From NCBI RefSeq assembly GCF_002072955.1, contig NZ_LPUF01000004.1, forward strand, positions 124,001 to 188,000: a stretch of 64,000 bases of DNA, read 5' to 3'. The position numbers were made by a program, and so were the translations under genes. Positions 3,268 through 19,736 of the stretch are shown piece after piece. Source of the DNA: Methyloprofundus sedimenti. GTDB taxonomy: Bacteria; Pseudomonadota; Gammaproteobacteria; Methylococcales; Methylomonadaceae. The notes below the pieces were generated by a model. The model saw only the letters and a list, made by a program, of their open reading frames with translations. It had not been told where the DNA came from and ran no database searches. Each line of letters begins with the position of its first letter. Positions within the stretch are counted from its first letter, which is position 1.

Positions 3268-4449
3268 CTATTTCAAACCCGCATTCAGATACTGCTGCAA
3301 ATAGCTAAAACTGATCCGTTCCTGCTCCAGGCGTAAGCACTCCTGATGCAAGTGCTGATAAAGCAAGTTTTCCTCATCGCTTAAATGCTTTAATATTTTT
3401 TCAGTGATTTTTGTTGGTGCATGAACCACTAAATGCGCAAACTGCTCTAAAGTTTGCGCATCCATCAACATCGATTTGACCTGCGGATAATACTGCCGCA
3501 AACGCGCTAAAATTGCCAAACCATCCGCATCTAAATCACCCCAATAATAAACCGTACGATCCTGCAAACATCGCGCATCTGCCAACAAATTCACCGCATA
3601 ACCCAAACCAAAAATCACGATCGCCTCAGGATGATCAGGAAACGCCAAAACAGTCACCTTATTTTCCGCAATAAACACCGTTTTTGCTGGAATATTTAAG
3701 GCTTTAAACTCACTCAAAGTCAGCGTTAAATCCGTTAAGCCCTGAATCGCCAGCGCCGGATCTAAAATGCGCAAGCGAATCAAAGGCTGGTCATAACGCA
3801 ATCCATAACGGCGTTCAAAACCATTATTTTTTAAACCGCTAATATCCGCCTGATAACTCGACTGGGCTAAAGTTTGCGTCAATAACTCACTTAAAATGCT
3901 TTTGTATTGTTCAATAAATTTACTATCCACACCTTTAATATCCAGTTGACGAATATAGCAACCAGGCTGAGGATGGGCTTCAAAATAAGCACACACTTTT
4001 AACAACTGCGGCCAGACTTCGGCGTATTGCATGACTTTAAAAGGATAACGAATTAACCAGTCTATTAATAAGCCATCTTGTTGCAAACTTTGTTCGGTGA
4101 GTGCTTGAAATTGTATGAATTCAGCAGTTTTAGCTAAATAGCTTAGAAAAATAGCTGCATTTGTAAAACGGATAACAGCAGGAATTTTTTGTTCGCCTAA
4201 TTGACGATGGCTAATCGCCTTATCAATAATTAAATAACCGTGTTTTTCACTGTCCTGGCGCAAGGTATAAATAGCATCCTGCAATTCACTATAATCAGTC
4301 AGCAAGTTTTTAGCGGGAATGTTTTTCAAGGGAATATCCAGCGGAAAACAGCTGGTTTTTTGTAGCCAGGCGCGATGAATATCGCCACGCTGCCAGATTT
4401 TTAAAGCGCTTTGTTTCAGGGCTTTAGGGGTGGTGAGTAGATCGGACAT
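3268..4449 (-). CDS. jetD: Wadjet anti-plasmid system nuclease JetD
   Basis: 393 aa, the normal length for type I JetD. The N-terminal half (to ~residue 190) fits DUF3322: PKALKQSALKIWQRGD, then an HRQLGEQKIPAVI stretch. The C-terminal half fits DUF2220, a topoisomerase VI A-like Toprim domain: VFIAEN supplies the acidic Glu and GDLDADG (304-310) the DxD pair. JetD is the topoisomerase-like nuclease that cuts circular plasmid DNA after JetABC extrude it. The gene appears intact from ATG to stop. It is on the same strand as jetABC and in the expected order (A-B-C-D), but ~9.8 kb away. No promoter of its own is obvious in the 200 bp upstream. Confidence 0.9.
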   Translation of the reverse strand: MSDLLTTPKALKQSALKIWQRGDIHRAWLQKTSCFPLDIPLKNIPAKNLLTDYSELQDAIYTLRQDSEKHGYLIIDKAISHRQLGEQKIPAVIRFTNAAIFLSYLAKTAEFIQFQALTEQSLQQDGLLIDWLIRYPFKVMQYAEVWPQLLKVCAYFEAHPQPGCYIRQLDIKGVDSKFIEQYKSILSELLTQTLAQSSYQADISGLKNNGFERRYGLRYDQPLIRLRILDPALAIQGLTDLTLTLSEFKALNIPAKTVFIAENKVTVLAFPDHPEAIVIFGLGYAVNLLADARCLQDRTVYYWGDLDADGLAILARLRQYYPQVKSMLMDAQTLEQFAHLVVHAPTKITEKILKHLSDEENLLYQHLHQECLRLEQERISFSYLQQYLNAGLK

Positions 4450-4618
4450 AGACTATTTTATTGCTTCACCAGCGACATTGATGGCCTTTGTTAATTTTTC
4501 GCTTATAACTGAAATCATTCCAAATTAAAACTGCTAAGATCAACGACACTGAAATGATTATCATAAAATTCATAAATAATGAACGCGTAGCGATACCCTC
4601 ATCTCAGCCGAGATCATC

Positions 4619-4667
4619 AAGTTGTATTGATGGGCACGGGAAAAAGCCCCCATTGCCCATCCTACCT
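4619..4667. repeat. REP-like palindrome, family A
   Basis: GTTGTATTGATGGGCACGGG pairs with CCCATTGCCCATC across a short loop. It is the same family as at 178 and 5068-5160. It touches the 3' end of the transposase pseudogene, the usual REP/RAYT arrangement. Confidence 0.7.
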
Positions 4668-4668
4668 A

Positions 4669-5051
4669 CTACTCATGTCCTATACCATCGAAATTATCTT
4701 TTAATAAAACATTTGATGCATACCAGCCTTTATCAATCGCCTGACAAAATGAGCTGTATTGTCATTCACTAGGATCTGAAACATACCCATGTTTGATTGG
4801 ATTAAAATGAATATAATCTATATGCCGTCGTCAATCATCCTCATCACGAATATAATGCTCCCAAAAACAACGCTGCCAGATACCTTTTTCGCGTTTTTTT
4901 ATTTTTGATTCACTCACGTCACTCTACGATAAACACAAATGAAAAGCAGCACGCAATCGATCAATATTTTCAATCAATAAGGGTTCTCGGTTTGCCGTTA
5001 CCACCGTAAAAAATATCTTGCTCCTGGCTTGTAAAAGCGTCGATATTCCAT
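4669..5051 (-). pseudogene. REP-associated tyrosine transposase (RAYT), decayed
   Basis: Reading the minus strand from an ATG at 5051 gives MEYRRFYKPGARYF, then after a one-base frame change TVVTANREPLLIENIDRLRA, later KKREKGIWQRCFWEHYIRD and RRHIDYIHFNPIKHGY. These are hallmark RAYT (TnpA-REP, Y1 HuH-like) segments. A six-T run at about 5004 is one base short. In-frame stops follow after FHLCLS, in place of Trp before RRHIDYI, and after SDPSE. RAYTs mobilise REP palindromes, and here REP-like units flank both ends. The gene is dead. Confidence 0.85.
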
Positions 5052-5067
5052 TCTATCACCCTGAAAT

Positions 5068-5160
5068 GTAGGATGGGCAAAGCCGTAGCGTGCCCATCAG
5101 GTTTGAGTCATGTGCGTTTGTATTGATGGGCACGGAAAAGAGCCTCTTTGCCCATACTAC
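5068..5160. repeat. Pair of REP-like palindromes, family A
   Basis: Two units in opposite orientation: GTAGGATGGGCA...GTGCCCATCAG, then TTTGTATTGATGGGCACGG...CTTTGCCCAT, about 17 bases apart. This BIME-like pair lies just upstream of the RAYT pseudogene. Confidence 0.65.
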
Positions 5161-5541
5161 CGACTGCCCATGATGCGTATTGTACACACCGGATAATCGC
5201 AATAAAACTGTTCCTTGTTTGAAGCAACCGATTTTATTATGAATAGTTAATATTGAGATAACCAGCTTGGCGAGTTAAACGATTCGTTGTAATGAGCTTA
5301 AAAATCATTAAACTTTATTCTCTAATCTCATCTTATTTTTTCCAGATTCCATGATTTAATTCTACTGTAACCCTTGTCGCCAACCGTCTGTACAAATACG
5401 CGAAGAGCATCTGCGTTGCTAAATAGGTTTATGAATGCCCCCCCAGCTCTACACGACTTTTAGTCGTATAGAGGTTAAAGCATTTTACAATGCGCATAGT
5501 ATTGCGCATAATAGGTTTAAGTAATTTTAGAGGATATTAGT
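5161..5541. other. Region upstream of ccdAB
   Basis: No gene seen. It contains a 12-bp stem with a 3-base loop at 5447-5473 (CTCTACACGACT / AGTCGTATAGAG, one mismatch) and, next to it, the putative Ccd operator. The hairpin has no T-tract after it. It may insulate or regulate the ccd promoter. Confidence 0.4.
5491..5508. promoter_or_regulatory. Candidate CcdA operator
   Basis: TGCGCA, six bases, then TGCGCA again. Each hexamer is its own reverse complement, so the whole is an inverted repeat, 34 bp before the ccdA ATG. CcdA/CcdB complexes repress their own operon from such sites. The assignment is by position and symmetry only. Confidence 0.45.
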
Positions 5542-5787
5542 ATGCAAGACTTATATGATTATACTGCCCCAAAAAAAGCAGCAAACCTTAGTTTAAATAG
5601 TGACCTGCTTAAAAAATCTAAAGAGTTGAACATTAATTTATCAGCAACATTAGAGCAGGCACTGAGAGAAAAACTGGCCCAAGCGGAATCTATACAATGG
5701 CTAGAAGAAAATAAAAATGCAATTAAAGCTTACAATAAATTTATAGAAGAACAGGGTAGTTTTGGTGACGAATACAGGAACTTTTAA
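5542..5787 (+). CDS. ccdA: Type II antitoxin CcdA
   Basis: 81 aa. The N-terminal part (KKAANLSLNSDLLKKSKELN, then INLSATLEQAL) is the ribbon-helix-helix DNA-binding region. The C-terminal part ends with LEENKNAIKAYNKFIEE and a G-F-DEYR-F end, the disordered tail that wraps CcdB. CcdA neutralises CcdB and represses the operon. The ATG follows GAGGATATTAGT. Its stop overlaps the ccdB start (TAATG). A chromosomal copy in an IS-rich island probably arrived by transfer. Confidence 0.92.
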   Translation: MQDLYDYTAPKKAANLSLNSDLLKKSKELNINLSATLEQALREKLAQAESIQWLEENKNAIKAYNKFIEEQGSFGDEYRNF

Positions 5788-6104
5788 TGGCCCAGTTTGA
5801 TGTTTATAAAAACCCAAATAAGAATACACAGAGTGCCTACCCGTATATCGTTGATATTCAAAGTCCGTTAATTTCAGAATTAGCAACAAGAATTGTTATC
5901 CCATTAGGCAAGTTGAGTCATTTTAAAAATGAACAAATAAATCGACTTACGCCTGAAATAAACTATAGCGGGGAACTGTTATTGCTACTGACACCGCAGA
6001 TTGCATCAGTTCCTGCAAAAATACTAAAAAAACCAGTTGGAACATTAAATCATTTTAGAGGTGAAATTATTGCATCCTTAGATTTTGCTATCACAGGGAT
6101 TTAA
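5787..6104 (+). CDS. ccdB: Type II toxin CcdB (gyrase poison)
   Basis: 105 aa, close to the ~101 aa of F-plasmid CcdB. It starts QFDVYKN, has PYIVDIQSPLI and TRIVIPL, and ends DFAITGI, matching the family's conserved start and the C-terminal GI. CcdB traps DNA gyrase on DNA and makes double-strand breaks. The residue before TGI is Ile where F CcdB has Trp, so potency may differ. It is translationally coupled to ccdA by a one-base overlap. The reading frame is intact. Confidence 0.92.
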   Translation: MAQFDVYKNPNKNTQSAYPYIVDIQSPLISELATRIVIPLGKLSHFKNEQINRLTPEINYSGELLLLLTPQIASVPAKILKKPVGTLNHFRGEIIASLDFAITGI

Positions 6105-6319
6105 TGAGAAATACAAAAAAAGCGTATCAAAAGAATAGGTCTTTTCAGGCAACATTACTACCCATTACTTTTTTGTATGTCTGGTAAGGAAAGACCCTCA
6201 CCTTCCTTCTAGCACTTACCCGATTAGAATAATTATTTAATCACACCAGAATTCGCAATTCGGGACCTGAACATCCCTCCCACGTGTACGTGTTTTCGAT
6301 AAATAGTGGCGCGCTGAGT
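6105..6319. other. Spacer with the GCAATTCGGGACCTGA motif
   Basis: 215 bp without a gene between ccdB and the Mrr-like gene. At 6249-6275 it has ATTCGCAATTCGGGACCTGA, followed by ACATCCCTC. This motif recurs near 7266, 12697, 13751, 14070 and, in part, near 37640. Confidence 0.45.
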
Positions 6320-6970
6320 TTAGTTAAATGACTTCATCCATTCTAAAATATCTGAATAATCATTTAGAGTAAGTATGTTCCTGGACTCTTTAGAGACGAT
6401 AACTGCGTCCGCAGTAAAGTAAGACGTAGTTACGACAATACCCTTATGAGCCTGTCGTTGAATAACATTACCTACCAGCCTTTGCACAACCCCAATTCCT
6501 ACTTTGTTGTCCGGGGCGTATCTTTTACATTCTATTAAGTTTACAGTATTTCCAGTAAGCGGTGATTTATGAATGGCTATAACATCTACGCCGCCGTCTC
6601 GAGTTTCCGGTGTTAACTCAACGTCAAAGCCATGATTTCTAAATATTGCTGCAACAAATTCCTCAAACTTCCTTGGTGTGATTGAATACAACTGCTCTGG
6701 ATGTTTCTTGAAATATGCAATAAGCTCTGATTCAATATTTGGGCATATTACTGTTGATTGTGATATTGCTACTTTTTTCTTTTTAGACCAATCAAACCCA
6801 GCAAATAAATCTACTAATGTTGACTGCCCATATTGCATTATAATTTTATCTAGCTCTTCATCCTCGATGTAATCCGCTTTAAAAAGAGACATGATTTCTG
6901 TTTCAGTAAGTGTCTTTCCATTTCTCAATTTCTCGGAAGCATTTCTGGAAATCCTCCTATGAACACGCAT
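6320..6970 (-). CDS. Mrr-like restriction endonuclease
   Basis: 216 aa. Residues ~90-216 fit the Mrr_cat PD-(D/E)xK fold: FEEFVAAIFRNHGFDVELT, then GGVDVIAI (acidic Asp) and IECKRYA (ExK), then VGIGVVQRLVGNVIQ and KGIVVTTSYFT. Such enzymes cut foreign, often methylated, DNA (type IV). The N-terminal ~85 residues are not recognised and do not look like the winged-helix recognition domain of E. coli Mrr, so specificity is open. No methylase is near. It faces away from ccdAB. Sitting beside Wadjet and toxin genes, it fits a defence island. Confidence 0.85.
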   Translation of the reverse strand: MRVHRRISRNASEKLRNGKTLTETEIMSLFKADYIEDEELDKIIMQYGQSTLVDLFAGFDWSKKKKVAISQSTVICPNIESELIAYFKKHPEQLYSITPRKFEEFVAAIFRNHGFDVELTPETRDGGVDVIAIHKSPLTGNTVNLIECKRYAPDNKVGIGVVQRLVGNVIQRQAHKGIVVTTSYFTADAVIVSKESRNILTLNDYSDILEWMKSFN

Positions 6971-7054
6971 ATCTGGAGGAAGCGGGGGCTTTTCCGGCGC
7001 TTCTTTTTTTCTTTACTCCCGGCGTTTCTGGCTCACTCATCTATTCATCTTTAG

Positions 7055-7133
7055 TCTGGTTGGGTGGGCAATGCTTTTATGCCCACCTTGTTTATCGGTA
7101 AATGATGGGCAAACGGTAAGGCTGTTTGACCGG
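7055..7133. repeat. REP-like pair, family B
   Basis: GGGTGGGCA...TGCCCACC is followed by GTTTATCGGTAAATGATGGGC and AAACGGTAAGGCTGTTTG. The same composite is at 42667-42750, and its second half at 12514-12567. The closing arm of the second unit is cut short by about 8 bp here. Confidence 0.65.
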
Positions 7134-7389
7134 GCTTTTCTTATATCAGGTGCATTATATGACACCGTCAGAAGGGAGAGGAGTCCATATCATCATCCTA
7201 CTAACTAGACTACTATGCAAAAATAAACACCTGAACATCCCTCTGCTTTTATTTTCTGCATATGAATTCGCAATTCGGGACCTAACCCTTAGCTTTTATT
7301 CGTAGTTTTTACTTCAGTTTGTTCATTACTTCATTACAATTTTGTTCTATTGTTTTGCAGATTTTATCAATAGTTACAGAAGTCTTATT
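7090..7389. repeat. Duplicated 300-bp segment (partner 12514-12821)
   Basis: From GTTTATCGG to TCTTATT this matches 12514-12821 with two substitutions that I can see and one 8-bp deletion in the REP. It carries the last 26 codons of the bestrophin gene and stops exactly where the IS66 copy begins. A second copy of the bestrophin locus was therefore broken here. Confidence 0.85.
7309..7389 (-). pseudogene. Bestrophin gene, 3' fragment
   Basis: The last 26 codons and stop of the gene that is whole at 12741-13643, cut off by the IS66 copy at 7390. Identical in this stretch to the intact gene as far as I can read it. It has no start of its own. Confidence 0.8.
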
Positions 7390-9037
7390 GTAACTTCTCA
7401 TTATCCACTGGCAGCGGCCGCACGAATGACTTCCGATAACGGAGGAATCCCTTCTAACTTCAGTAAGCGACTTTTTAAATAACCCCAAAATGACATGCCG
7501 TGCTTTCGGCAGGTCTTCTTGAGACTGGCAAAAGTATCACGGGCTTTCCGCCCTGCATCACTTCGTGTACTCCCGCTGATTTTTCGTTTCTTGACGTAAT
7601 CCCTTATATCCCGTTCGCTTAAATTGTTATGAAGTGGGAGGTAGGGTTTGTCGAGTACACGGAGGAGTTCATGTTGATTTTTCCCCATTCGCCCGAGGGC
7701 CTGGTTAAGCGTTTCGTAACAGGTTTTGGTACTGCATAGGATTTGAAAGCGCTGCCTGATACTGCTCGCCTGTTCGGTAACAGGATTAAGTTTATAAGCT
7801 TTCAGGTCATGGTAAATCGACCAAAGCTGGTCGCGTGCGTCATCTACTGCCTTGGTATGGCTGTCATTTAAAGGAATCAGGCGATTAATTACTCGTTCGG
7901 CATGGATCCAGCACAAGGCATGATCAAAGACGTTAAACTGCCCTGCATCATCACTGATAATTGAAAAAGTCAGAGGAAATGCCTTGGTCTAGCAGCCCTC
8001 CCATCAAAGCACCTTCCGTGACTATTTTTCTGTGCCGAGGTTTAACGATGCCTTGCTGATCCAGCCATTCGCACCCGTCAGGTGCCGTGTTAATGCAGAC
8101 ACTGATATTTTCCAGTGTCGCCAATATTACAACAGACAGCTTATTTTGTGCCATGTATTCAATGGCACCTGTGTTCAATGTATAAAGCGTTGTTTTGCCT
8201 TGTGATAGACAGTTTAAAAAATTGATTCTGCTTTTACTTTCTGTACTACTGAACCAGGCAAAAAAATCATTGCCAATATGTGTGCAATAGCCATTTTGCC
8301 CTTTATGCCGTGCGCCAGTATCATCTGTATGAATATATTTAGAAACGGATAATCCCGTCTTCAGTAATTCATCTTTTTCGGCATGAAAATCGTCCAGATC
8401 TTCTGTTAGTATATAACTGAGCTTACCGCTCGAAATATCGACGCCTAAATCACGAATTTGTTCCAGTAGTAATGGCTGTGTGACATGTTGGTGATGGTAT
8501 TGATAGAGAATAAAGGCAATAAGGCTTTTACCAAAACTACCTCCCTGAATGTCTTCAGGAAGCTGACCTAAAATCGTAAGACCCTCTGGCGTTATATATT
8601 CTGCTAAACGATAACGAATGTTATGAGTTTGAAAGGTAATATCCTGAATAACACGATCCTGATACCCTTTAAAGCGTGAACCCTCTGGGATTTCATCCGG
8701 CTAAATAATTTGGGTTTCATCTATTTTGAGGTTGCCTTTTTTACTGCGCCTTGGGCCTTTTTTCCTTTTTGATGAGGAGTCATCACTTCCTGGGGCACCC
8801 TCCTTATCCATTGTACTCGGTTTGATTTTAGGCTTTGTGGTTTCGCCTTTAAGCTTGAGTATCTCTTGTGCTAACTCATCAATCTGCTTTTGTTGCCAGG
8901 CAAGCATTTCCAATAACACATCGACTAGCGGTGTGCGATCTTCTTTGTTTATCTCTGGTAATTCAGGTTTAGGCGAGTTCATAGAATATATTGTAAAGCA
9001 ACTTTTTAATATTTTCCCGTGGATAATGAGAAGTTTC
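7390..9037 (-). mobile_element. IS66-family element (tnpC only), copy 1
   Basis: 1,648 bp with ends GTAACTTCTCATTATCCAC and its inverse (one or two mismatches; the other end reads GAAACTTC). The 5'-GTAA start is typical of IS66. It is near-identical to the copy at 40702-42348, one base longer. No 8-bp target duplication is seen (GTCTTATT left, ATTATTAT right), and tnpB of another IS66 abuts its right end. Confidence 0.85.
7401..8982 (-). pseudogene. IS66 transposase TnpC, inactivated
   Basis: It should encode ~526 aa like the copy at 40713-42293. A Gln codon became TAG at 8703-8701, early in the gene (after QTQII), and one extra A in an A-run at about 7965 shifts the frame. Fragments in three frames (8982-8701, 8178-7951 and 7916-7401) together cover the family: a Lys-rich linker, a core with DDTGARHKGQNGYC, and C-terminal NNLSERDIRDYVKKRKISG. 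The transposase is dead in this copy. Confidence 0.88.
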
Positions 9038-9120
9038 ATTATTATACCACTAAAAGGCTGATAAATAAGGTTTAACTTGCTGTTTTATTGATTCTTTTTA
9101 TGCAGAATAGAGTCGCTTGA

Positions 9121-9477
9121 TCAGTTGTTTTTTAGACCAGAAACAGCCGTGTGCGCTTGCACTTGGTGATAGGATAAACCATCCAGTAACCAGTGTAATT
9201 CACGTGAGGTTAGTGACACAGCCTGCTCGTTCAATTCGCTTGGCCACTGGAACGTCCCCTTATCCAGGCGGCGATAATAAAGCCAGAAGCCATTACATTC
9301 CCAATAGAGTAGTTTTAGTTTATCGCGAGAGCGATTACAAAAGACAAAAACACTCCCGGTAAAGGGATCATGGCCCAACTGCTCTGAAACGATCAGCGAC
9401 AAGCCATTAATGGACTTACGCATATCCGTAACACCTGTCGCCAGATACACCTGATTAACAGCAAGACCGTTTATCAT
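9121..9477 (-). CDS. tnpB: IS66 accessory protein TnpB
   Basis: 118 aa, the standard Orf2 of IS66 elements: YLATGVTDMRKSINGLS near the start, then VFVFCNRSRDKLKLLYWECN and GFWLYYRRLDKGTF. TnpB is needed with TnpA and TnpC for IS66 transposition; its exact role is unclear. It overlaps tnpA by 4 bp (ATGA). No cognate tnpC follows. Confidence 0.92.
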   Translation of the reverse strand: MINGLAVNQVYLATGVTDMRKSINGLSLIVSEQLGHDPFTGSVFVFCNRSRDKLKLLYWECNGFWLYYRRLDKGTFQWPSELNEQAVSLTSRELHWLLDGLSYHQVQAHTAVSGLKNN

Positions 9478-9806
9478 GAGATGGACCTCACCAACTCCAA
9501 TAACGGTTTTAAAATACTGAGTTCCGTATTGGCCTGTATTTCCAGGCTAAAGCCATTGGTATGAGTGACTTTGATAACCGACGATAGCCTTGGGCCACTT
9601 AAATTGTCTTCGGCAACAAATTTTACCGGAACCAGTTGGCTGGTTTGTTGCACTGACGAGCTGGCCGAACCGAATTTCTTTTTGTAATAACTGAAGATAT
9701 GCGGCTTGATATCATGGACCTTGCAATACTCAGCCTGAGTTAAACGACTGGCTTGCCATTGTGGTATATGCTCTTGCATAGCCGCTTTATTTTGAGATGG
9801 GCTCAT
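9474..9806 (-). CDS. tnpA: IS66 accessory protein TnpA
   Basis: 110 aa. The N-terminal helix-turn-helix (WQASRLTQAEYCKVHDIKPH, then FSYYKKKF) is typical of IS66 Orf1, followed by a loose linker and a beta segment (FSLEIQANTELSILKPLLELV). Probably binds the element ends. First gene of the remnant and overlaps tnpB. Confidence 0.9.
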   Translation of the reverse strand: MSPSQNKAAMQEHIPQWQASRLTQAEYCKVHDIKPHIFSYYKKKFGSASSSVQQTSQLVPVKFVAEDNLSGPRLSSVIKVTHTNGFSLEIQANTELSILKPLLELVRSIS

Positions 9807-9909
9807 AAATACCTCTGAAGTTAAATGGAGGTATTAGTGTGCCCTTTTTTATAGGGGTTTAGAATGTGTGGTTTAATTGACGCTTACAGTATAAATGTTG
9901 AACTTGTAA

Positions 9910-10113: not shown

Positions 10114-10133
10114 GGATAACTGGGGTCAGAGTA

Positions 10134-11670
10134 GAATGGCACTTACTTAAGATATAAGCTACTGAAAATATTAAAAAAGGCAGGTTCGATGATAAACTGA
10201 TTGCGACAAAACAACTTAGCCATCACCGAGAAACCTGCCTTAATGTTTATTAATAACAAATTTTTACGCTGCCAACAACAAAGAATAAAAAAATGTGCAG
10301 AAAAGACAGATTCGTATCAATTTTTAACCTGCTCACCTGCCCTGAACTGCTATCAAGAATTGACACCTTATTACCTGAACATCGAGAGCGACTTTATCCG
10401 CCCACAGAAACACTTTCAATTTTTTAGCACAAGCCTTGAGTGAAGATCGCTCCTGTCAAAAAGCGGTCAATGATGCAGCAATAAAACGTATCATTGGTGG
10501 CCTTGCACCTGTTAGTACCTCTACGGGTGGTTATTGTCGAGCAAGACAGCGTTTGCCATTAGCAATGGTTTCTGACCTAGTTTGCCAGACAGGTGAGCTC
10601 ATTAACTGTCAAATCCCTGAGCAATGGCGCTGGCATGGAAGGCGTGTACATTTAATTGATGGAACCACTGTAACAATGCCCGACACCGTTGAAAATCAGG
10701 CAGTATATCCTCAGCAGAGTGGTCAAAAACCAGGACTTGGTTTTCCAATTTGTCGGTTGGTTGGCGTTATCTGCCTTTCAAGTGGGGCCGTTTTAAATGC
10801 GTCGATAGGACGGTTCAATGGAAAAGGCTCAGATGAGCAAAGTTTGCTTCGTAATATTATAGACACCTTTGATACGGGAGACCTTGTTCTTGGCGATGCT
10901 TTTTATGGTACCTATTTTTGTTAGCTTCACTGCGTGAAAAGGCATTGATGCCGTCTTTGAGCAAATGGGCGCGCGTAAACGGGTAACTGACTTTAGGAAA
11001 GGCAAACGAATAGGCACCAGAGATCACTTAATCGAACTAACCAAACCAAAGATCAAACCAGACTGGATGACACAAGCGCACTATGATGTTGCACCGAAAA
11101 CGTTACTTATCCGTGAGTTAAGCACTCATGGCAAGATACTCATAACAACATTGCTATGCCCTAAAGAAGCATCGAAACCAGAACTCAAGGTTTTGTATAA
11201 AAAACGCTGGCAGATTGAAGTTGATTTCCGGAATATAAAAACGACGATGGGCATGGAAACGCTCAGCTGTAAAACACCCGAAATGAGTGAAAAGGAGATA
11301 TGGGTCTATTTTCTGGCCTATAATCTGATTCGACTATTGATGGCTCAAACGGCTTTATTAGTCGATATATTACCACGCCAGCTTAGCTTTAAGCATACAC
11401 TACAATTGTGGTTGGCATGGACTCAACAGACGGCTCTTACTGGTACAGGAGTCATTGAAGAATCATTATTTGTATTAATTGCTCAGCAGCGGGTTGGAAA
11501 TCGTTCTGGTCGAATAGAACCTCGTGCAGTAAAAAGAAGACCAAAGCCTTTTTCCTTGTTAATGAAACCTAGAGAAGAAGCAAGAGCAGTGATTAGAAAG
11601 AATGGACACCCGAAGAAAATAAAGTAACTCACTGTGATTTATGTGTTTTATTCTTAAGTAAGTGCCATTC
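10134..11670 (+). mobile_element. IS4-family element, copy 1
   Basis: 1,537 bp with perfect 19-bp ends (GAATGGCACTTACTTAAGA inverted). It is flanked by an 11-bp direct repeat, GGGTCAGAGTA, at 10123-10133 and 11671-11681, the target duplication. It is the same element as 42822-44362, which is 4 bp longer. Confidence 0.93.
10201..11627 (+). pseudogene. IS4-family transposase, frameshifted
   Basis: The intact copy encodes ~476 aa. Here four single bases are missing, each in a homopolymer: a T-run at ~10321, a T-run at ~10424, a T-run at ~10918 and an A-run at ~10941. The broken frames still cover DDE landmarks: HLIDGTTVTMPDT (first D), GDLVLGDAFYGTY (second D), and YKKRWQIEVDFRNIKTTMG (YREK-like region with the E). 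Either dead by slippage or a read error, since every difference seen is a run-length change. Confidence 0.88.
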
Positions 11671-11766: not shown

Positions 11767-12027
11767 TTATGCGACTTCTTTTTGCTCTACATCCCAGCCT
11801 GGAAAAACAAGTACAGCAGGATGAACCTGTAATGCTCTTGCAAGAACTTTTGCTCTTTCTACCCCTAAGTTTACCTTGTCATGCTCAATAGCTGAAAGTG
11901 TTGATTGAGGGATTCCTGTAAGAGTTGATAATTCATTTTGGCTTAATTCTTGAAACTCGCGAATAATACGAACAGACTCACCTATGGAAACTTTTTCTCT
12001 AATTAGAGATTCTTGATAATCTTTCAT
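11767..12027 (-). CDS. HTH antitoxin of a RelE-type pair
   Basis: 86 aa from the ATG at 12027. I prefer this start because AGGAG lies 8 bases upstream and the ATG begins one base after the toxin stop; a start at 12048 would overlap the toxin. An XRE helix-turn-helix is clear: VRIIREFQELSQNELSTLTG, then PQSTLSAIEHDKVNLG. It is expected to bind the toxin and repress the operon. Toxin-first order is that of HigBA-like modules. The operator candidate is at 12318-12333. Confidence 0.88.
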   Translation of the reverse strand: MKDYQESLIREKVSIGESVRIIREFQELSQNELSTLTGIPQSTLSAIEHDKVNLGVERAKVLARALQVHPAVLVFPGWDVEQKEVA

Positions 12028-12028
12028 A

Positions 12029-12310
12029 TTACTTTCTCCTATAATCATGTGCAGTTACTTTAACTACATATACAAAAAACTGCTCATTTTCAATTTTATA
12101 AATAATTCTATATTGAAGGTTGAGGCGTGACGATCGGTGTCCTTTCCACTCGCCTAGCAAAGGCTCATCGTTAAATCCTTTAATCTGTTTTAACCCGTCT
12201 GGACCAGAAATTGATACGATATCTTTCCATTTTTCATATCGCTTCAAAACTTCAGTTGGTAATGAGCTAATTTGCTTTATAGATTTTTTATGTTCAAATA
12301 TTTTCCACAT
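12029..12310 (-). CDS. RelE/HigB-like toxin
   Basis: 93 aa. Features fit the RelE/ParE superfamily: SLPTEVLKRYEKWKDIV, then LKQIKGFNDEPLLGEWKGHR and SSRLNLQYRIIYKIEN, ending VVKVTAHDYRRK. Family members cleave mRNA at the ribosome; the C-terminal HDYR-type end is typical of the HigB/YafQ side. It is first in the operon, and the antitoxin ATG follows one base after its stop. The frame is intact. Confidence 0.87.
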   Translation of the reverse strand: MWKIFEHKKSIKQISSLPTEVLKRYEKWKDIVSISGPDGLKQIKGFNDEPLLGEWKGHRSSRLNLQYRIIYKIENEQFFVYVVKVTAHDYRRK

Positions 12311-12317
12311 ATCATAA

Positions 12318-12333
12318 ATAGTATAGATACTAT
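12318..12333. promoter_or_regulatory. Candidate toxin-antitoxin operator
   Basis: ATAGTAT-AG-ATACTAT, a perfect 7-bp inverted repeat, 8 bp upstream of the toxin start. Its position and symmetry suit autorepression by the HTH antitoxin. Confidence 0.5.
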
Positions 12334-12740: not shown

Positions 12741-12821
12741 TTACTTCAGTTTGTTCATTACTTCATTACAATTTTGTTCTATTGTTTTGCAGATTTTATC
12801 AATAGTTACAGAAGTCTTATT
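12514..12821. repeat. Duplicated segment (partner 7090-7389)
   Basis: This is the full version, with a complete family B REP (12514-12567) and the 3' end of an intact bestrophin gene. The partner is truncated by IS66. Confidence 0.85.
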
Positions 12822-13643
12822 TTCCGAAAATGGCTCAGCAAATAAGTTTGTTAACTTGTTTATTGTTAAAAACGCAGAACTTATGATTACCATAACTGGA
12901 ATTGCTAAAAACTCAAATCCACTGTTTTCTCCTCCTAAGTCTATATCGCCAATAAATAAAGGTATAAGAATGACGTAAAAACCCACAATTATTTTCGTGA
13001 AAGCACTGTAAATCATCAAAAAAGGCGTGTTTTTGATTCTCTCTGCTTTACCTTGAGTGTCATAAAAACGATTAATTTGTTGCATTAAATCGCTTTTTTC
13101 GATATTAGCTCTTGAAGAGAAATCGCTTTCAAGGGTTTTTGTGATCGCTACTAATATTTCGTTTGAAATTTTATTTTCTATGTTTATTTTAAATGCGCTA
13201 AATAACTCTAACTCTTGCTCATTAAAACTGGGTTTGAAATTATTGTGCATTTCATTTTTTAGCTGTCGTATGTATAAAATAGTCAATCTAATTAATTTTT
13301 CAGCTTGAAGTTTTAAATCTGCTTGCTCGATATCTTTAAAATTTTCTGAATTACCATAATAGGCATAGATTTTAGCAACGAAACTTCTAGTGTTGTTTGT
13401 TAATTCTCCAAATATTTTCCTTGCTTCCCACCATCTGTCATACGCTGAATTCATTCTAAAACCCAAGAAAAAGGCAACAGCAAGCCCAAATACAGAGCCT
13501 ATTTGTCCAGATGTTTTATAAATGTGGTCACCAAAATATTCTTCAATACTAAGTACAAGAACTGCGTAAACCGTTGTAATAATTATAAACGGTAATGCAA
13601 TTTTTAATAATTGAAGTAAACCTTGTTTTTCTGTCTTTATCAT
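12741..13643 (-). CDS. Bestrophin-family (UPF0187) membrane channel
   Basis: 300 aa. Hydrophobic segments near 13-35, 45-65, ~210-235 and ~245-262. The hallmark FGLAVAFFLGFRMNSAYDRW, followed by WEARKIFGELTNNTRSF, identifies the bestrophin/YneE family. Bacterial members form pentameric inner-membrane ion channels; several conduct cations rather than chloride. AT-rich compared with the jet genes. It is monocistronic, between toxin genes, so probably cargo. A 3' fragment of the same gene is at 7309-7389, so the locus was once duplicated. Confidence 0.88.
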   Translation of the reverse strand: MIKTEKQGLLQLLKIALPFIIITTVYAVLVLSIEEYFGDHIYKTSGQIGSVFGLAVAFFLGFRMNSAYDRWWEARKIFGELTNNTRSFVAKIYAYYGNSENFKDIEQADLKLQAEKLIRLTILYIRQLKNEMHNNFKPSFNEQELELFSAFKINIENKISNEILVAITKTLESDFSSRANIEKSDLMQQINRFYDTQGKAERIKNTPFLMIYSAFTKIIVGFYVILIPLFIGDIDLGGENSGFEFLAIPVMVIISSAFLTINKLTNLFAEPFSENKTSVTIDKICKTIEQNCNEVMNKLK

Positions 13644-13860
13644 TTGCTAATCGTCATCTTCTTCAATGCTTTGATTATAGGGGATCCCAATATTTAGACC
13701 AATACTTAAAGAGCTATTTAGAGGTGAAAACAAAGGGTCAAAAAACAAGCGTCAGGTTCCAATTGCGAATTTATTGACAAATAAGCTAAGAACTTTAAGG
13801 TCAGTTCTAACATTCATATATTTTTGTTGGAATCTTAGACTTTACCCTTGGGTTAACGGT

Positions 13861-14049
13861 CTAGCCATGCGTTTGATAGCAGCATAAATGTTGAACTTGT
13901 AACGACTCAATTTCCCAATCCTCCAACCTTAACCCTGTCACCCGTGAAAATTCGCCGGTATTATATGTCACCAATACTACATCATAAGCGCGCGCCGTGG
14001 CAGCAATTAGAATATCATTGGGCCCTATGGGTTTACCTTGAGCAGCTAC
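13861..14049 (-). pseudogene. VapC (PIN) toxin, C-terminal fragment 2
   Basis: Same segment as 9910-10113, about 95 percent alike by eye: AAQGKPIGPNDILIAATARA, then YDVVLVTYN and GEFSRVTGLRLEDWEIESLQ. Here the final stop of fragment 1 is a Ser codon and the frame runs on to a TAG at 13861. The 5' part is missing and is replaced by unrelated sequence at 14050. Confidence 0.82.
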
Positions 14050-14145
14050 AAACAGAGGGGCAGGTCCCCAATTGCGAATTTCTAGCTATTCTGAACGCAT
14101 TGGTTTTCGGGATTTTGTACCTCAGTTTGTGGATCTCTGCGTCAC

Positions 14146-14192
14146 GGAACGCTGAGCGTTCTCGTATGAATTCCCACGCAGAGCGTGGGAAC
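14146..14192. repeat. Double palindrome next to jetC
   Basis: GAACGCTGAGCGTTC, then TTCCCACGC-AGA-GCGTGGGAA. Both are self-complementary. Such units are spread through many proteobacterial genomes. This one lies 36 bp after the jetC stop, so it could also end the jetABC transcript. Confidence 0.6.
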
Positions 14193-14227
14193 TAGGAGTA
14201 AGTTAAAAAAACGGGAGCTAGTCGTCA

Positions 14228-17200
14228 TTACCGCGCGCCCTTCTCCTTATGATATTCCTCAATCGTCAAATTCCTTAACATCGAATTTTTACCGCCTTCA
14301 TTATGTACCAGATTCACACTTTTCACATAATTCTCAATCACATGGATTTTCTGTAACGGGGTGACGATTAACAACTGTAAATTAAGCTTACTGAATAATT
14401 CCAGCCCATAACGCGCGGAGTCATCCGAGCCGCGACCGAAGGCTTCATCGATCATCACAAAACGGAAGCTTCTGGATTGTGTTTCGCCCCATTCCAGGCC
14501 AAATTGATACGCGAGTGCCGAGGCTAAAATGGTGTAGGCGAGCTTTTCTTTTTGCCCTCCGGATTTACCTGCCGAATCGGAATAGTATTCTTTTTCCTGA
14601 TGATCTTCGCGCCAGCGCTCTGAGGCGGAAAACAGGAACCAGTTGCGCACATCGGTGACTTTTCGCGTCCATTTTTTATCGCTATCGGTTTGCCCTTCGC
14701 GACCATTGAAACGATCAATGAGCTTTTTTACCTGATAAAATTTACTTTCATCATACAAGTCATCCTCTCCGCCTAAGGTATCGGCTAAACAGGCTCTTAA
14801 ATCCTGCTGGAAACCTCTGATATCAATGTCTTTACTGCGCTCAGAAATCAGCGTGATATAAGTCCCTGCATTGTAATCAATGGCATTCAGCGAGAGATTT
14901 ATTTTGGTCAGTTTATCTTCTATTTCCTGGCGCTCTTTATCAAGATTGGCCTGAAACATGGCGATTTTCTGGATCGTGCCTTCTTTGAGCATTTGATGAA
15001 AACGTTTTTCATGCCGCGGCAGATCTTCTTTTTCTAATTTTTCCAGCATTTCACCAAATTCAAAAGCCGATTGTAAGGCGACATCGACCTCTCGGGTTTC
15101 CTGATGATACTTGTCCTTATATTGCTGCATCTGGGTAATAATACGCTCTGCCAGACGCTGAATTTTGGTGTTTTCATTATTCAACTGAATTTGTATCCAT
15201 TTGCGCATCACGCTTTGGTTATCATCGCTATTGGCGATGCTTAGCGTAATATCCGGTAGCGCTTTCGGCTGCAGTTCAGTGAGCCTGGGAAAGCTAAATT
15301 CGCGCTCGCTTATGGCTGTTTGCTGAATAGTTTGCTCGCTGATCTGGAGCAGGTGTTTATCGTGTTCTAATTGCGCTTCTAATTTACCGCCTTCTTTCGT
15401 TAAGACGGTCATTTTTTCTTCCTGCGCGGCAAGCTGCAGCAGGCTGTTTTCCAGTTGTGTTTGTAGCTGCTTTAAGATATCCGAGTTTTGCTCAATCTCC
15501 TTTTTTTCATCTAACAGCTGATCAATTTTCAGACTGATTGATTTCCAGTCTATCTCATCAAAATGCGCAATATTCAGTAAGTCACGCGCTTTATCGCGCT
15601 GCTTTGTTAATAACTGTAATTGTTTATCCAGATTTTGTAACTGGCTTAAACAATCAAAGCCTTCACGCTGTACCGCGGTTAAGTTCTGTTGCAGCGCTTT
15701 TATTTTGGCTTTATTATCCCAGCCCAGGATAAAGCGCGAACGGTCATTAATCGCATGGCGGTCATCTTTTTCATGCCGCGAGGCACTGCTTTTAATCTGC
15801 CCCTGGGGTGTAATCGCCTTGGGTTGTCGTCTGAATTCATCCAGGCTTTCTGCGCAGTAATAATCAAACTGCTGGGCAATTTGCGCGGCTAACCAGTCAT
15901 AAAAAGGGCTGTCCGTTTTGATACGTAGCTTATGAAACAGGGATTTAGCAGCTGGCATGTCAAAGCGTTCTGCTTGCTGCTCTTTAATGCGGAAATACAC
16001 CAAACGCCCTTTTAAATGCGTTTTTTCCACATAATGCGCGACTTTTTCATAGTGCTCTTCGGCAACCAATAAGCTCAAGCCCATGGTATGCATGACGCGC
16101 TCAATCGCGCCTTCCCAATGCGCCTCGGTTTCATCAACTTTTAATAATTCACCGATAAAGGGCAATTCTTCGGCGGCAATGCCAATGGTTTCAGCCATTT
16201 GCTGACGGATGCGCAAGTTATTTAACGGAATATTGCTTTGCCGCGCCTGTAAAGAGTCTATTTCTTCTTGTAACTGCTCCGCCTGTGCATTGAACTGATT
16301 GCGCGCAATGGTGACATCAATCTTGTGTTTATCAATTTCGCCTTGCTGCGTCTCTATCTCTTGCTGTCTGGCTTCTGCTTGCAGGCGGTTATCATGAAAG
16401 CTGTCGCTATCATGCACCATGGAAAATTCCAGCAAGGTACAAAAACTTTGATAACGTTCTGCCTGTTGTTTTTTCTGCGCCAGACTGATTTCAAAGCGTT
16501 GCACATCGGCGCGTATCATTTCCAGGCGCCGGCCGCCATTATCATCGATGCTTTGTTTTAGCTGGGTTTGCTGTTCCCGCAATTCAAGCAAATCAGCTTG
16601 CTGGCGAACTATGCGTTGCTGGTGTTTTTCCTGCTCTATTTCGCGTTTAGCAATGCGTTCATTAAGTAATTCGGTTTTATGTTGGGCAAAGAATGCGTCC
16701 AATGCATCACGGCAACGGGTTTTATCGCTGTGCTGTTGCGCATAGATCTGATGATGGCTGTAATCGCTTAACATCGGTTTTAAGAGCGATAATTGATCTT
16801 TGGCTTTTAAGACCGCTTCGTGCGCCCGATTGAGGTTATCAAATTCTCGACAGATTGACGTAATTCGTTCTTGTACCGGCGGCGCTTCCAGCATGTGCAG
16901 GCGCACAAAGTCTGTGAGATTGCCGACCGCTTTCATCGACACTGTTTGATACAACAGTTCTAAAGCTTGTTCGCTTTCTATGCCTAAACGCCGCCGGAAT
17001 TCGGCGGAATAGTCTTTAAAGGATTCAAATAACTGTAGTTTCGGACGTCGTTTCAGGCGCTTTTTTAAATCCAGAATATCACTGCCAAACTGGGAAAAAT
17101 GCTCCTTGATACTTAAGGCTTCAGTGCTCAGCACATAAAAACGCGCGGGTTGATTCTGATCTTCTTTACACCAGAAAACTTGCGCAATAGTGACATGAGC

Positions 17201-17593
17201 ATCGTAGCCGGCATTATAAAAATAACCGAGCAAAACACTATAGTTATTCGCATCGCGTAATGCGACTTGTTTAGCGGCTAAATTCTCGGCATCTTTTTCG
17301 CTTTTATAATGACCGCGTACATAGGAGTTTAAATTACGCTCTTTGGCTTCTGCACCGGCGGCTTTGTTATAGGTAATTTTTTGTGTGGGTACCAGTAGCG
17401 TTGTTAATGCATCGACTACAGTTGATTTACCAGAACCTATATCACCGGTTAATAAGGCATTTTCACCGTTGGGTTTGATCTTCCAGATATGCTTATCAAA
17501 AGTTCCCCAGTTTAAGAGTTCAAAACGATGCAGCCTGAACCCGGCTAATTTATCATCCGTCATACTATCCAGTTCAGTCTGTAGATTCGGCAT
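14228..17593 (-). CDS. jetC: Wadjet SMC-like ATPase JetC
   Basis: 1,121 aa. Walker A is LLTGDIGSGKST (GxxGxGKST at 50-58). The ABC signature KSGGQKEKLAY is near 1010-1020 and Walker B FVMIDEAFGRGSDD near 1045. Between them are long Gln/Glu/Lys-rich coiled coils (~290-450 and ~640-780, ~830-940) and a hinge-like globular part (~460-600). This is the MukB-like motor of type I Wadjet, a dimer that extrudes DNA loops and senses small circles. Its start overlaps jetB by 20 bp, implying coupled translation. Its TAA overlaps an ATG that no longer leads into jetD. Confidence 0.93.
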   Translation of the reverse strand: MPNLQTELDSMTDDKLAGFRLHRFELLNWGTFDKHIWKIKPNGENALLTGDIGSGKSTVVDALTTLLVPTQKITYNKAAGAEAKERNLNSYVRGHYKSEKDAENLAAKQVALRDANNYSVLLGYFYNAGYDAHVTIAQVFWCKEDQNQPARFYVLSTEALSIKEHFSQFGSDILDLKKRLKRRPKLQLFESFKDYSAEFRRRLGIESEQALELLYQTVSMKAVGNLTDFVRLHMLEAPPVQERITSICREFDNLNRAHEAVLKAKDQLSLLKPMLSDYSHHQIYAQQHSDKTRCRDALDAFFAQHKTELLNERIAKREIEQEKHQQRIVRQQADLLELREQQTQLKQSIDDNGGRRLEMIRADVQRFEISLAQKKQQAERYQSFCTLLEFSMVHDSDSFHDNRLQAEARQQEIETQQGEIDKHKIDVTIARNQFNAQAEQLQEEIDSLQARQSNIPLNNLRIRQQMAETIGIAAEELPFIGELLKVDETEAHWEGAIERVMHTMGLSLLVAEEHYEKVAHYVEKTHLKGRLVYFRIKEQQAERFDMPAAKSLFHKLRIKTDSPFYDWLAAQIAQQFDYYCAESLDEFRRQPKAITPQGQIKSSASRHEKDDRHAINDRSRFILGWDNKAKIKALQQNLTAVQREGFDCLSQLQNLDKQLQLLTKQRDKARDLLNIAHFDEIDWKSISLKIDQLLDEKKEIEQNSDILKQLQTQLENSLLQLAAQEEKMTVLTKEGGKLEAQLEHDKHLLQISEQTIQQTAISEREFSFPRLTELQPKALPDITLSIANSDDNQSVMRKWIQIQLNNENTKIQRLAERIITQMQQYKDKYHQETREVDVALQSAFEFGEMLEKLEKEDLPRHEKRFHQMLKEGTIQKIAMFQANLDKERQEIEDKLTKINLSLNAIDYNAGTYITLISERSKDIDIRGFQQDLRACLADTLGGEDDLYDESKFYQVKKLIDRFNGREGQTDSDKKWTRKVTDVRNWFLFSASERWREDHQEKEYYSDSAGKSGGQKEKLAYTILASALAYQFGLEWGETQSRSFRFVMIDEAFGRGSDDSARYGLELFSKLNLQLLIVTPLQKIHVIENYVKSVNLVHNEGGKNSMLRNLTIEEYHKEKGAR

Positions 17594-18164
17594 AGGCTTG
17601 GTAAGTGGCTAATTTTTGATTAAAGTCTGCAGTCCAGTCGGCATCAACCAAGGCGCTGATAATGCGTTGAATTTCCAGGTTTTCATTGTCGTTTGTCAAT
17701 TTGCGCAAAAAGCCCAGTTCAATCACTTTGTTAATGGTGGCGTTAATGGATGCACTGATTTGTGCTTCATTACTTTTCTCCGGCATAAACACCAGCATGG
17801 CATTGCTAAGCTCCTGTCTTGAGACAATCACGCGTATATCCGCACCTGAGCTATCGGCTTCAGCCATTTTTTTACGTAATAGCACACATAATAAGCTAAT
17901 CGGATAACTTAGAGGACGGCGCGCTATTAAGCGTGGCAGAGGATCTTTTTCATCCTCATCAGGGATACTTTGTGTTAGCCAGGCATAGCCTTCGGTATCG
18001 TCTATTGCCAAATCCAGTCCCATCACTTTTACATAATCTAGAACCTGACTTTGTAAGCTTAATAGATCATGCCATAACATCGGTTGCTGGTTACGGAATA
18101 AAATGCCTTTGAGGAGGTGGATGATAATGGGGGAGATACTGGGTTGGTGTTCTTCTTCGGTCAT
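17574..18164 (-). CDS. jetB: Wadjet MukE-like subunit JetB (DUF4194)
   Basis: 196 aa. It matches DUF4194: LLKGILFRNQQPMLWHDLLS at the start, YAWLTQSIPDEDEKDPLPRL, then RPLSYPISLLCVLLRKK, and a winged-helix-like end (NKVIELGFLRKL...EIQRIISALVDADW). JetB bridges the JetA kleisin and JetC heads in the way MukE does. It is middle gene of jetA-jetB-jetC, overlapping jetC by 20 bp. It lies 132 bp after jetA, a larger gap than usual, with no gene in the gap. Confidence 0.9.
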   Translation of the reverse strand: MTEEEHQPSISPIIIHLLKGILFRNQQPMLWHDLLSLQSQVLDYVKVMGLDLAIDDTEGYAWLTQSIPDEDEKDPLPRLIARRPLSYPISLLCVLLRKKMAEADSSGADIRVIVSRQELSNAMLVFMPEKSNEAQISASINATINKVIELGFLRKLTNDNENLEIQRIISALVDADWTADFNQKLATYQAYAESTD

Positions 18165-18296
18165 AAATGAGTTGTGCAGTATTTATTATCGGTAGCGGTG
18201 ATTAGCACCAGTTGTATTGGAAATTACTTTAGCATGAAAAAATCTGTTGCAACATGCCTGAATTTTGGCCAGCAGTCTGCGCTCCCGGCAATGAGG

Positions 18297-19736
18297 TTAA
18301 TGCCGGGTAAAAATAACACTGGGCATTGTTACCGACTTATCCACACCTTCCGAGCTCACCCAGGTAATTTCAACTTCTTTTTCGCCATCTATCAAGGCAT
18401 GGGAATTATCCTGACAAGCCAGATTCATATAGGCGATCAGTTCACTCAAGCCTTTTTCTAAAGGGTGCTGTTCACAGATTTCCAGCAACGTAATCTGTCG
18501 TTGATTTTGCAGGGCTTTGTTAATGCGTGCCTGTAGCATGTCTGTATCGACATAATGCTGAGTATATAATAAGTCACTGCTAAACTCTGCGGCACCGGAG
18601 CTTAATTTTTCTGTGGCAATAACCGGGCGACTGGGCGGTCGGAATAAGGTACGTGATACCGCTAATTCGATCTGCGCCTTGGTATCATCTAAGTAAGTAA
18701 AGTCTTTATCCTTGGGCGGGTTTTGTTTAATGGCAATTGCTGATTTTTCAATTTCGTGAATAATCGACATAATGCGTTTGTTTTCCAGCCATACCTGATC
18801 ATCCAAATAGCGGCGTAATTGCTCAACCAGACTAGAGCTGGTGCGCTGTACTTTCTCACCGGCTTCCAGTAAATGATATTTCATTTTCGGCAATAATTCA
18901 TCTGGCTCACAGCTTTGCACTTCTTCCAAAGCGAGCACTTTTTGAATAAGTGCATTAAATTCTTCCTGTTTTGCTGGCGACATCAGCAAGCCCCAGAACG
19001 CCTGAAAACTTTTGCCCTGGTCTGAATCACCGATATCATCTTGCTCGCCAAAAATATCATCCAGTAACTCGCCTTTATGTTTATTGCTGGTGGCGATTTT
19101 CTCGCGTGTACTACGGTCGAGTTGCCGAAAATTCTCTTCAACCTGTCTAAAATCCATCAGCAAGCTACGCGCGGTTTCTTCCAGCTGATAAAAGCGCTCT
19201 TTGACCTGACGAGGATCATAGCTAATCACTTCACCTTGTTGTAAACGGGAAATTTCAGCATCTATTTCTGCTTTTTGCACTTCTAATTCGGCAATACGCT
19301 GTTGTGGATCGGTTTGTGTAGTTTGCAGGATGCTGGCAAGCAATTCAAAGACCGTCAATAGCCGTGACTCTGTACCAATAAATTGTTTTTGTTCTAAACT
19401 ACGCAGCCATTCTATCGATTTTTCACTCGCCGGAGTTAAATCAAATTCTGGCTCGTCGCTGTTTTCTGCATAATACTTGCGCAAAAAAGCATTTTCTCCG
19501 CTAGCCCAATCAGTGAGATAGGCTTTCGCCGTTTTCGGGTATTTGTCGCGATGAATCTGACGCAGGTGAAATAAAGTGTCTTCCAGCTTTTCCGTTAATT
19601 CGCTTTGTTTTAATGAACGGCAATTGGGCTGAATAAACACTCGGTAAAAAAAGCTGATAATCAAAGCTGAATTATCGGCACATAATAAGCGCCAAGTCGG
19701 ATGCTGGCGAAGTTTGAGTAAATAATCGTGTTCCAT
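18297..19736 (-). CDS. jetA: Wadjet MukF-like kleisin JetA (DUF3375)
   Basis: 479 aa from the ATG at 19736. A GTG at 19808 would add 24 residues, but the family begins as here: YLLKLRQHPTWRLLCADNSA, then LIISFFYRVF. Next come LTEKLEDTLFHLR, TPASEKSIEWLRSLEQKQFI, a coiled coil near 160-190, and a C-terminal SELIAYMNLACQDN segment. JetA is the kleisin that closes the JetC dimer. It is the first gene of the operon and is divergent from the heptosyltransferase at 19862, so the jet promoter should lie in 19737-19861. No regulator is seen. Confidence 0.9.
   Translation of the reverse strand: MEHDYLLKLRQHPTWRLLCADNSALIISFFYRVFIQPNCRSLKQSELTEKLEDTLFHLRQIHRDKYPKTAKAYLTDWASGENAFLRKYYAENSDEPEFDLTPASEKSIEWLRSLEQKQFIGTESRLLTVFELLASILQTTQTDPQQRIAELEVQKAEIDAEISRLQQGEVISYDPRQVKERFYQLEETARSLLMDFRQVEENFRQLDRSTREKIATSNKHKGELLDDIFGEQDDIGDSDQGKSFQAFWGLLMSPAKQEEFNALIQKVLALEEVQSCEPDELLPKMKYHLLEAGEKVQRTSSSLVEQLRRYLDDQVWLENKRIMSIIHEIEKSAIAIKQNPPKDKDFTYLDDTKAQIELAVSRTLFRPPSRPVIATEKLSSGAAEFSSDLLYTQHYVDTDMLQARINKALQNQRQITLLEICEQHPLEKGLSELIAYMNLACQDNSHALIDGEKEVEITWVSSEGVDKSVTMPSVIFTRH

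Follow-up and report, generated by a model that had tools for sequence, protein, structure and literature searches.

A type I Wadjet system in Methyloprofundus sedimenti whose jetD gene lies apart from jetABC

Organisation of the Wadjet locus

In the window analysed here (64,000 nucleotides of Methyloprofundus sedimenti DNA, contig NZ_LPUF01000004.1), one type I Wadjet system is encoded by four intact genes that share a strand and the usual order, and the nuclease gene jetD is detached from the other three. The gap between jetC and jetD spans positions 4450-14227, or 9,778 bp (Table 1). A preliminary description of the sequence had placed a contiguous, intact jetABC about 9.8 kb from a whole jetD with its Toprim acidic residues, on the same strand and in the right order; open reading frames (ORFs), Pfam and PADLOC matches and a protein alignment bear this out. 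All four Jet families were found (Pfam, PADLOC), with E-values of 2e-139 for DUF3375 in jetA and 2e-39 for DUF4194 in jetB, and the top PADLOC matches are JetA1, JetB1, JetC1 and JetD1, all of type I. In JetC, AAA_29 and SbcC_Walker_B exceed their Pfam cut-offs, and the residues of the Walker A, signature and Walker B stretches are invariant across 11 aligned proteins. All 36 aligned JetD proteins carry E262, D305 and D307; these are the proteins of the window, of the related genomes G008 and G014, and of 33 of 80 named loci (genomes carry G numbers, loci L numbers). Sequence matches in the PDB are 7til, 8b7f (MksG) and 8q72 for JetD and 8dk2, 8as8, 9qxt and 8dk1 for JetC. A second Wadjet copy as the source of jetD, named beforehand as a finding that would overturn the idea of a split operon, is ruled out at the sensitivity of the search, which covered the whole assembly (4.29 Mb, 6 contigs) and returned one jetD match and one jetC match.

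The locus has the same protein families, ABCD order and Toprim acidic residues as known type I systems (JetABCD or MksBEFG, from Pseudomonas aeruginosa PA14, Escherichia coli GF4-3 and Corynebacterium glutamicum), and differs from them in that jetD lies 9.8 kb from jetC, as against a median of 15 bp in 70 named loci. A review treats the Wadjet operon as a set of four subunits, all of them required, and suggests that loss of JetD gave rise to MksBEF (PMC10586767). JetABC-like complexes have been suggested to be viable without a linked JetD; the window differs in that jetD is present and intact. In a second paper, the four-gene operon is conserved into Pseudomonas and mksB is split in P. putida (PMC10123090).

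Table 1. Features of the Wadjet locus and of the interval between jetC and jetD, in the direction of the jet genes.
Feature	Position	Strand	Description
jetA	18297..19736	-	kleisin, DUF3375; frame of 479 aa, intact; inside a longer ORF, 18297-19808
jetB	17574..18164	-	KITE, DUF4194; 196 aa, intact
jetC	14228..17593	-	SMC ATPase; AAA_29 and SbcC_Walker_B; 1121 aa, intact
169-nt segment	13880..14048		95% identical to 9887-10055; VapC-like gene end, judged by eye only
bestrophin-like gene	12741..13643	-	intact, Pfam
261-nt segment	12561..12821		end of bestrophin gene and flank; 100% identical to 7129-7389
HigB/RelE-like toxin gene	12029..12310	-	under Pfam cut-off (20.7 of 27 bits)
HigA-like helix-turn-helix antitoxin gene	11767..12048	-	HTH_3
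IS4-like element	10134..11670	+	DDE_Tnp_1; transposase split into 162 and 220 aa
IS66-type unit	7390..9888	-	tnpB (Pfam), tnpA-like ORF (by position), tnpC in pieces
Mrr-type nuclease gene	6320..6970	-	Mrr_cat 4e-27; top PADLOC match PDC-S02, 9e-14
ccdA-ccdB toxin-antitoxin pair	5542..6104	+	opposite strand to jet genes, divergent from jetD
ccdA-to-jetD interval	4450..5541		1,092 bp; repeats and, by eye, an apparent broken transposase of the type associated with repetitive extragenic palindromes
jetD	3268..4449	-	Toprim nuclease; DUF3322 and JetD_C; 393 aa, intact

Running from jetC to jetD, the gap holds a VapC-like gene end, the bestrophin-like gene, the HigB/HigA-like pair, an IS4-like element, a copy of the VapC-like segment, an IS66-type unit, the Mrr-type gene, ccdA-ccdB and 1.1 kb of repeats, on mixed strands (ccdAB and the IS4-like transposase on the plus strand; the bestrophin-like gene, the HigB/HigA-like pair, the IS66-type unit and the Mrr-type gene on the minus strand). 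CcdA, CcdB and Mrr_cat stand between jet genes with scores over their Pfam cut-offs; the HigB-like match falls below. A promoter-like match (12347-12320, 11 of 12 positions) lies directly upstream of the HigB/RelE-like gene. The two insertion sequences (IS) make up 4,036 of the 9,778 bp (41%). The IS4-like element is bordered on both sides by the 11-bp direct repeat GGGTCAGAGTA and has at least 6 near-full copies in the genome at 97-100%, and for a 1,648-bp IS66-type unit the number is at least 16, at 99-100% (both lower bounds, 40 of 173 candidates having been scored). Because near-full copies exist at 97-100%, both IS probably entered the gap late. The duplicated segments would point to duplication of a bestrophin cassette, before or together with the IS events. 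The 1,648-bp unit (window 7390-9037 and 40701-42348) carries a tnpC-like gene only and is flanked by 8-bp target duplications at two other checked places. A repeat of about 97 bp at 12417-12514 has at least 9 further copies in the genome (93-98%).

Jet-gene spacing and inserted genes in other loci

The named loci are the best 80 of at least 581 jetD loci. Distances from jetC to jetD were obtained for 70 (in the other 10, jetC is absent from the piece or its end is not reached); four exceed 300 bp and one exceeds 1 kb, namely L082 from Pseudomonas cuatrocienegasensis, at 2,288 bp. Genome surveys extended this comparison; they scored no more than two jetC candidates per genome, required both genes on one contig and extrapolated the distances from where the alignments or models ended. 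Among 369 genomes of the window's class there are 33 jetC-jetD pairs, the window alone exceeding 1 kb; among 398 genomes of the phylum there are 31 pairs, four of which exceed 1 kb, the window and G533 (1.4 kb), G514 (9.1 kb) and G467 (13.3 kb). Together these are 62 distinct pairs (G000 and G132 occur in both), and the named and genome sets partly overlap (e.g., L055 and G017). Since jetC and jetD lie more than 1 kb apart in one of the 70 named loci and in three of the 61 non-window pairs, we take adjacency of the four genes, from which the window departs, as usual and not essential. The split is real and unusual, and it is not unique. The earlier generalisation that the four genes are together in every known type I system is therefore too strong: gaps above 1 kb occur in four further lineages, and a distant Wadjet locus in the same genus is interrupted between jetA and jetB. 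Among the named loci, 3/57 jetA-jetB junctions, 1/58 jetB-jetC junctions and 1/70 jetC-jetD junctions hold an insert above 1 kb, and a preference for the last junction is unsupported by these loci.

Within Methyloprofundus, jetA matches occur in 7 of 18 genomes, jetC in 4 and jetD in 6. The close lineage comprises the window genome, G008, G017, G007, G014 and G015. An uninterrupted jetC-jetD junction, which the preliminary description proposed to look for in close relatives, is present in G017, where the genes are about 190-200 bp apart; this is the sole near-joined pair of the lineage. In G008 this junction is 2,672 bp wide and is filled by a gene for a 720-aa PDC-S06/AAA_13 ATPase (candidate defence) and a DUF2281-like, antitoxin-like gene below the Pfam cut-off; its jetABC, cargo and jetD all lie on one strand, jetD crossing a contig end that was joined through an exact 73-bp overlap. 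The neighbours on the jetA side are common to G008 and the window, and no DNA match was found between the two gaps, which rules out for G008 an ancient gap with shared content, the other observation that had been foreseen as fatal to the split-operon idea. In G014, an AbiLi/AAA_21 gene follows jetA and is cut by the contig end, an intact jetD lies on a separate contig, and no jetC match was found, a weak absence because the genome is only 70% complete. G007 holds jetD in pieces with stops and a jetA match only to about codon 353, with no jetC match, and G015, rated 100% complete, has an open jetA (L052, 8203-9642) and no jetC or jetD match. Judging from the gap, fragments and absences in G008, G014, G007 and G015, the locus has been repeatedly invaded and repeatedly lost in this lineage. 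Elsewhere in the survey, L042 (G020, 8183-14100) is a broken system in which jetC is reduced to its last 266 codons, with a partial jetA match upstream.

The jetD gene adjoins hldD-hldE-gmhA in G008 and gmhA-hldE-hldD in G007, and lies near hldD in G014 (heptose gene names assigned by eye; only the SIS domain in G007 and the epimerase in G014 were verified). In the window genome, hldE lies on contig C1, with no jetD-like ORF in the surrounding 14 kb, so the jetD side has been rearranged as well; this leaves the gap itself unexplained, and the idea that jetD was carried off together with the heptose genes is rejected.

Defence-type genes in Wadjet junctions are common but not universal. The jetC-jetD cargo of L082 is a Septu pair (PtuA 4e-161, PtuB 1e-36). 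In G514 it consists of hsdM, hsdS, a DUF3800 gene, PtuA (2e-128), PtuB (8e-65) and hsdR (4e-175), each in the orientation of the jet genes; hsdM and the end of jetC overlap, and 6 or 9 nt separate hsdR from the start of jetD, which reaches the contig end. The jetC-jetD gap of G467 (L151) contains minus-strand genes, including a MoxR-type AAA gene, followed by TIR-domain and MoxR-like AAA genes on the jet strand, and that of G533 (L153) a single SLFN_AlbA_2 gene that overlaps jetD and has weak PADLOC argonaute-type matches only. Smaller jetC-jetD gaps hold MazE/PemK (681 bp, L088), a PIN-domain gene on the other strand (G423) and a ketopantoate-reductase-like gene just under the cut-off (G027). 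At other junctions, PDC-M25A lies between jetB and jetC in L064, while between jetA and jetB L111 has a zeta toxin, and L072 a TacA-like antitoxin with an acetyltransferase. In the distant Methyloprofundus locus of G011 (L040, G011:C172, 150-12940; JetD 33% identical), jetB, jetC and jetD are together and jetA is cut off; the jetA-jetB insert, on the jet strand, encodes a type III methyltransferase (3e-166) and restriction enzyme (1e-139, both PADLOC), a PemK-like toxin (Pfam 5e-24) and a ribbon-helix-helix protein just under the Pfam cut-off. The insert in L114 is a muramidase and not defence-like, and at the interrupted junction of L124 the ORF calls, made without a family search, show doubtful ORFs only.

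The G514 locus (L152, G514:C100, 2861-18235) interleaves Wadjet, type I restriction-modification (R-M) and Septu genes on one strand in the order jetA-X-jetB-jetC-hsdM-hsdS-DUF3800-ptuA-ptuB-hsdR-jetD, mostly overlapping or nearly touching. Besides the extra gene X (L152 4328-4891), an extra gene also lies between jetA and jetB in L153 (4854-5600), whose genome belongs to the same taxonomic family; the products are 187-248 aa long and have no Pfam match.

Constraint on jetD and its route of expression

In a 12-protein alignment, window JetD conforms at every one of the 58 columns that are invariant in the rest; across the 36 proteins, it departs from the consensus at 4 of 69 near-invariant columns (range 0-9). 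At all four of these, G008 and G014 are also off consensus, with the same residue as the window at three and a different one at the fourth; two of the four flank the catalytic pair. The window protein thus shows no private loss of a near-invariant residue, and its changes look old and lineage-wide, not recent. Near residues 305-311, the catalytic stretch reads DxDGL in the window, G008 and G014 and DTHGF in G017 and most JetD proteins; MksG of C. glutamicum also reads DxDG where most read DTHG. Given that the catalytic residues are kept and no near-invariant residue is privately lost, JetD in the window is probably still used.

Substitution rates (Nei-Gojobori) are consistent with this. For jetD, the window-G008 comparison gives pS 0.59, pN 0.088 and dN/dS 0.08, and the window-G014 comparison pS 0.63, pN 0.091 and dN/dS 0.07. 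By way of comparison, window-G008 dN/dS values are 0.07 for jetC, 0.06 for jetB and 0.03 for jetA. Simple arithmetic on the three jetD distances assigns dN of 0.034 to the window branch, 0.061 to G008 and 0.064 to G014. These values argue against a dead jetD and cannot date the split.

JetD is most likely made from a transcript of its own, because opposite-strand genes (CcdAB and the IS4-like transposase) sit in the gap; read-through from jetC is an unlikely route. The preliminary description had offered a separate transcript or read-through of several IS elements: the former is the likelier, and the latter is both hard to reconcile with the gene orientations and overstated as to content, as IS account for less than half of the gap. 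In G008 and G514, where the cargo is co-directional, jetD could share the host transcript, which it could not easily do in the window. Separate tuning of JetD levels, also proposed there, is possible.

Readings of the split and variant architectures

The locus is best explained as a type I Wadjet that still works or did so until recently, that has its jetD detached and that gathers defence and toxin-antitoxin modules and IS. We assign a probability of roughly 0.6 to the reading that the jetC-jetD junction was opened recently by foreign modules and then by two IS, that JetABC and JetD are transcribed separately, and that the locus follows a recurrent pattern of embedding. On this reading, this Methyloprofundus lineage would recently have seen the junction of a single type I Wadjet opened, first by toxin-antitoxin pairs, the Mrr-type nuclease gene and the bestrophin cassette (partly duplicated) and afterwards by the two IS. 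JetABC would be expressed from a promoter upstream of jetA. With CcdAB and the IS4-like transposase running against jetD, JetD would be made from a separate transcript that starts within the 1.1 kb between ccdA and jetD. The proteins would act as in known Wadjet, with loop extrusion by JetABC on small circles and cutting by JetD, and the locus would be one instance of the recurrent embedding of defence and toxin-antitoxin modules in type I Wadjet operons.

Several observations count against this scenario. A consensus scan that was powerless (33 sites found versus 41 expected by chance) returned no sigma-70-like site on the minus strand between 4450 and about 6065, and inspection by eye showed no good Shine-Dalgarno sequence ahead of jetD in the window, G008 or G017. 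Of the six close-lineage genomes (a total that includes the window genome), three keep only pieces of the system. JetD of 26 of the 36 aligned proteins breaks fewer near-invariant columns than that of the window, and the contiguous G017 (L055) breaks one, versus four in the window, five in G008 and four in G014. The constraint on jetA is stronger (dN/dS 0.02-0.03) than that on jetD, much of which may predate the split, and omega is rough because synonymous sites are near or beyond saturation and G017 pairs are mostly not computable.

Some of these points lend themselves to a different reading, in which the insertion uncoupled jetD, useful amounts of JetD are no longer made and stop codons have yet to accumulate. 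Such decay, which we consider rather unlikely but still a serious alternative, is in keeping with the patchy distribution of jet genes in the genus, with the broken G007, the jetA-only G015 and the dispersed G014, with the recent look of both IS, and with the changes at four near-invariant JetD columns shared by the three lineages with detached jetD. Yet all four window genes are open, those shared changes are older than the separation of the window, G008 and G014, the window jetD branch is not the faster one, and the incompleteness of G014 weakens its absences. The earlier suggestion that the system is on its way out fits G007, G014 and G015 better than it fits the window.

A reading that goes further than recurrent embedding takes the cargo as a selected, functional nest, a Wadjet with built-in accessory defences and JetD held at a separate level. 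Six of the jetC-jetD gaps found here exceed 1 kb (the window, G008, L082, G514, G467 and G533), and all but that of G533, with its Schlafen AlbA_2-type gene, contain genes of defence or toxin-antitoxin families; the near-seamless insertion in G514 and the co-directional type III R-M and PemK-like genes of G011 also suit this idea. We nevertheless regard it as improbable: the cases were found first and described after, without a background rate, some inserts are not defence-like (the muramidase of L114), the window cargo runs in both orientations and is interrupted by IS, and the named loci show no preference for the jetC-jetD junction. An assembly artefact, two loci joined through a copy of one of these multi-copy IS, is hardly credible given the 232-kb contig of a 6-contig assembly, the agreement of gene order and strand with relatives and the G008 split at the same junction.

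More generally, and tentatively, type I Wadjet may be a recurrent nest for defence modules of unrelated kinds (Septu, R-M of types I and III, candidate PDC systems, TIR/MoxR genes and toxin-antitoxin pairs), which would settle between jet genes and often separate the SMC genes from jetD. The result would be a composite anti-plasmid and anti-phage locus with JetD under separate or downstream control, and the window would represent a late, IS-invaded stage.

The embedding of defence genes in defence operons is already known, and the window is an IS-invaded example of it in Wadjet. A 2024 preprint by Payne et al. reportedly uses 'guilt by embedding' for defence genes found inside other defence operons. 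There too, the genes of a single defence operon are separated by foreign defence or toxin-antitoxin modules; the window differs in that the host is Wadjet, the cargo lies partly on the opposite strand and IS have been taken up. DarTG2 sits between hsdS and hsdR of a type I R-M system in enteropathogenic E. coli (PMC12255303), and PDC families were named through 'guilt by embedding' (PMC10855318, PMC12988326). No description of a split Wadjet, or of cargo inside Wadjet, was found at the level of titles and abstract beginnings, in a search that left preprints and most subscription journals outside. Wadjet has been studied as a four-gene unit. Operons with a detached nuclease gene, or with R-M and Septu genes between the sensor and nuclease genes, offer ready tests of JetD dose and co-expression, and should the window locus prove functional, jetD can do without operon linkage. 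Programs that need close genes may miss or mis-split such loci.

Other loci depart from the four-gene arrangement in further ways. Open jetD genes with no jetC match upstream occur in a Methylococcaceae metagenome-assembled genome (MAG; L056, 5816-7018, 5.8 kb upstream covered) and in a Sedimenticola MAG (L071, 4321-5502, 4.3 kb). The order is permuted to jetD-jetA-jetB in L074 (Sulfurovum sp. bin170, 6876-10040). In L139 (G089:C2, 2651-11300), jetABC-like genes, 31-33% identical to those of the window, are followed directly by a gene for a 1013-aa SNF2-family helicase; the class survey gave no jetD match in this genome. The locus may represent a variant of JetABC that uses a different partner. 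Finally, a 145-aa ORF in a Chlorobiaceae MAG (L089, 6196-6633) joins the start of JetA (DUF3375, 44 positions) to what is, by eye, the end of JetB, and precedes open jetC and jetD genes, an apparent in-frame deletion.

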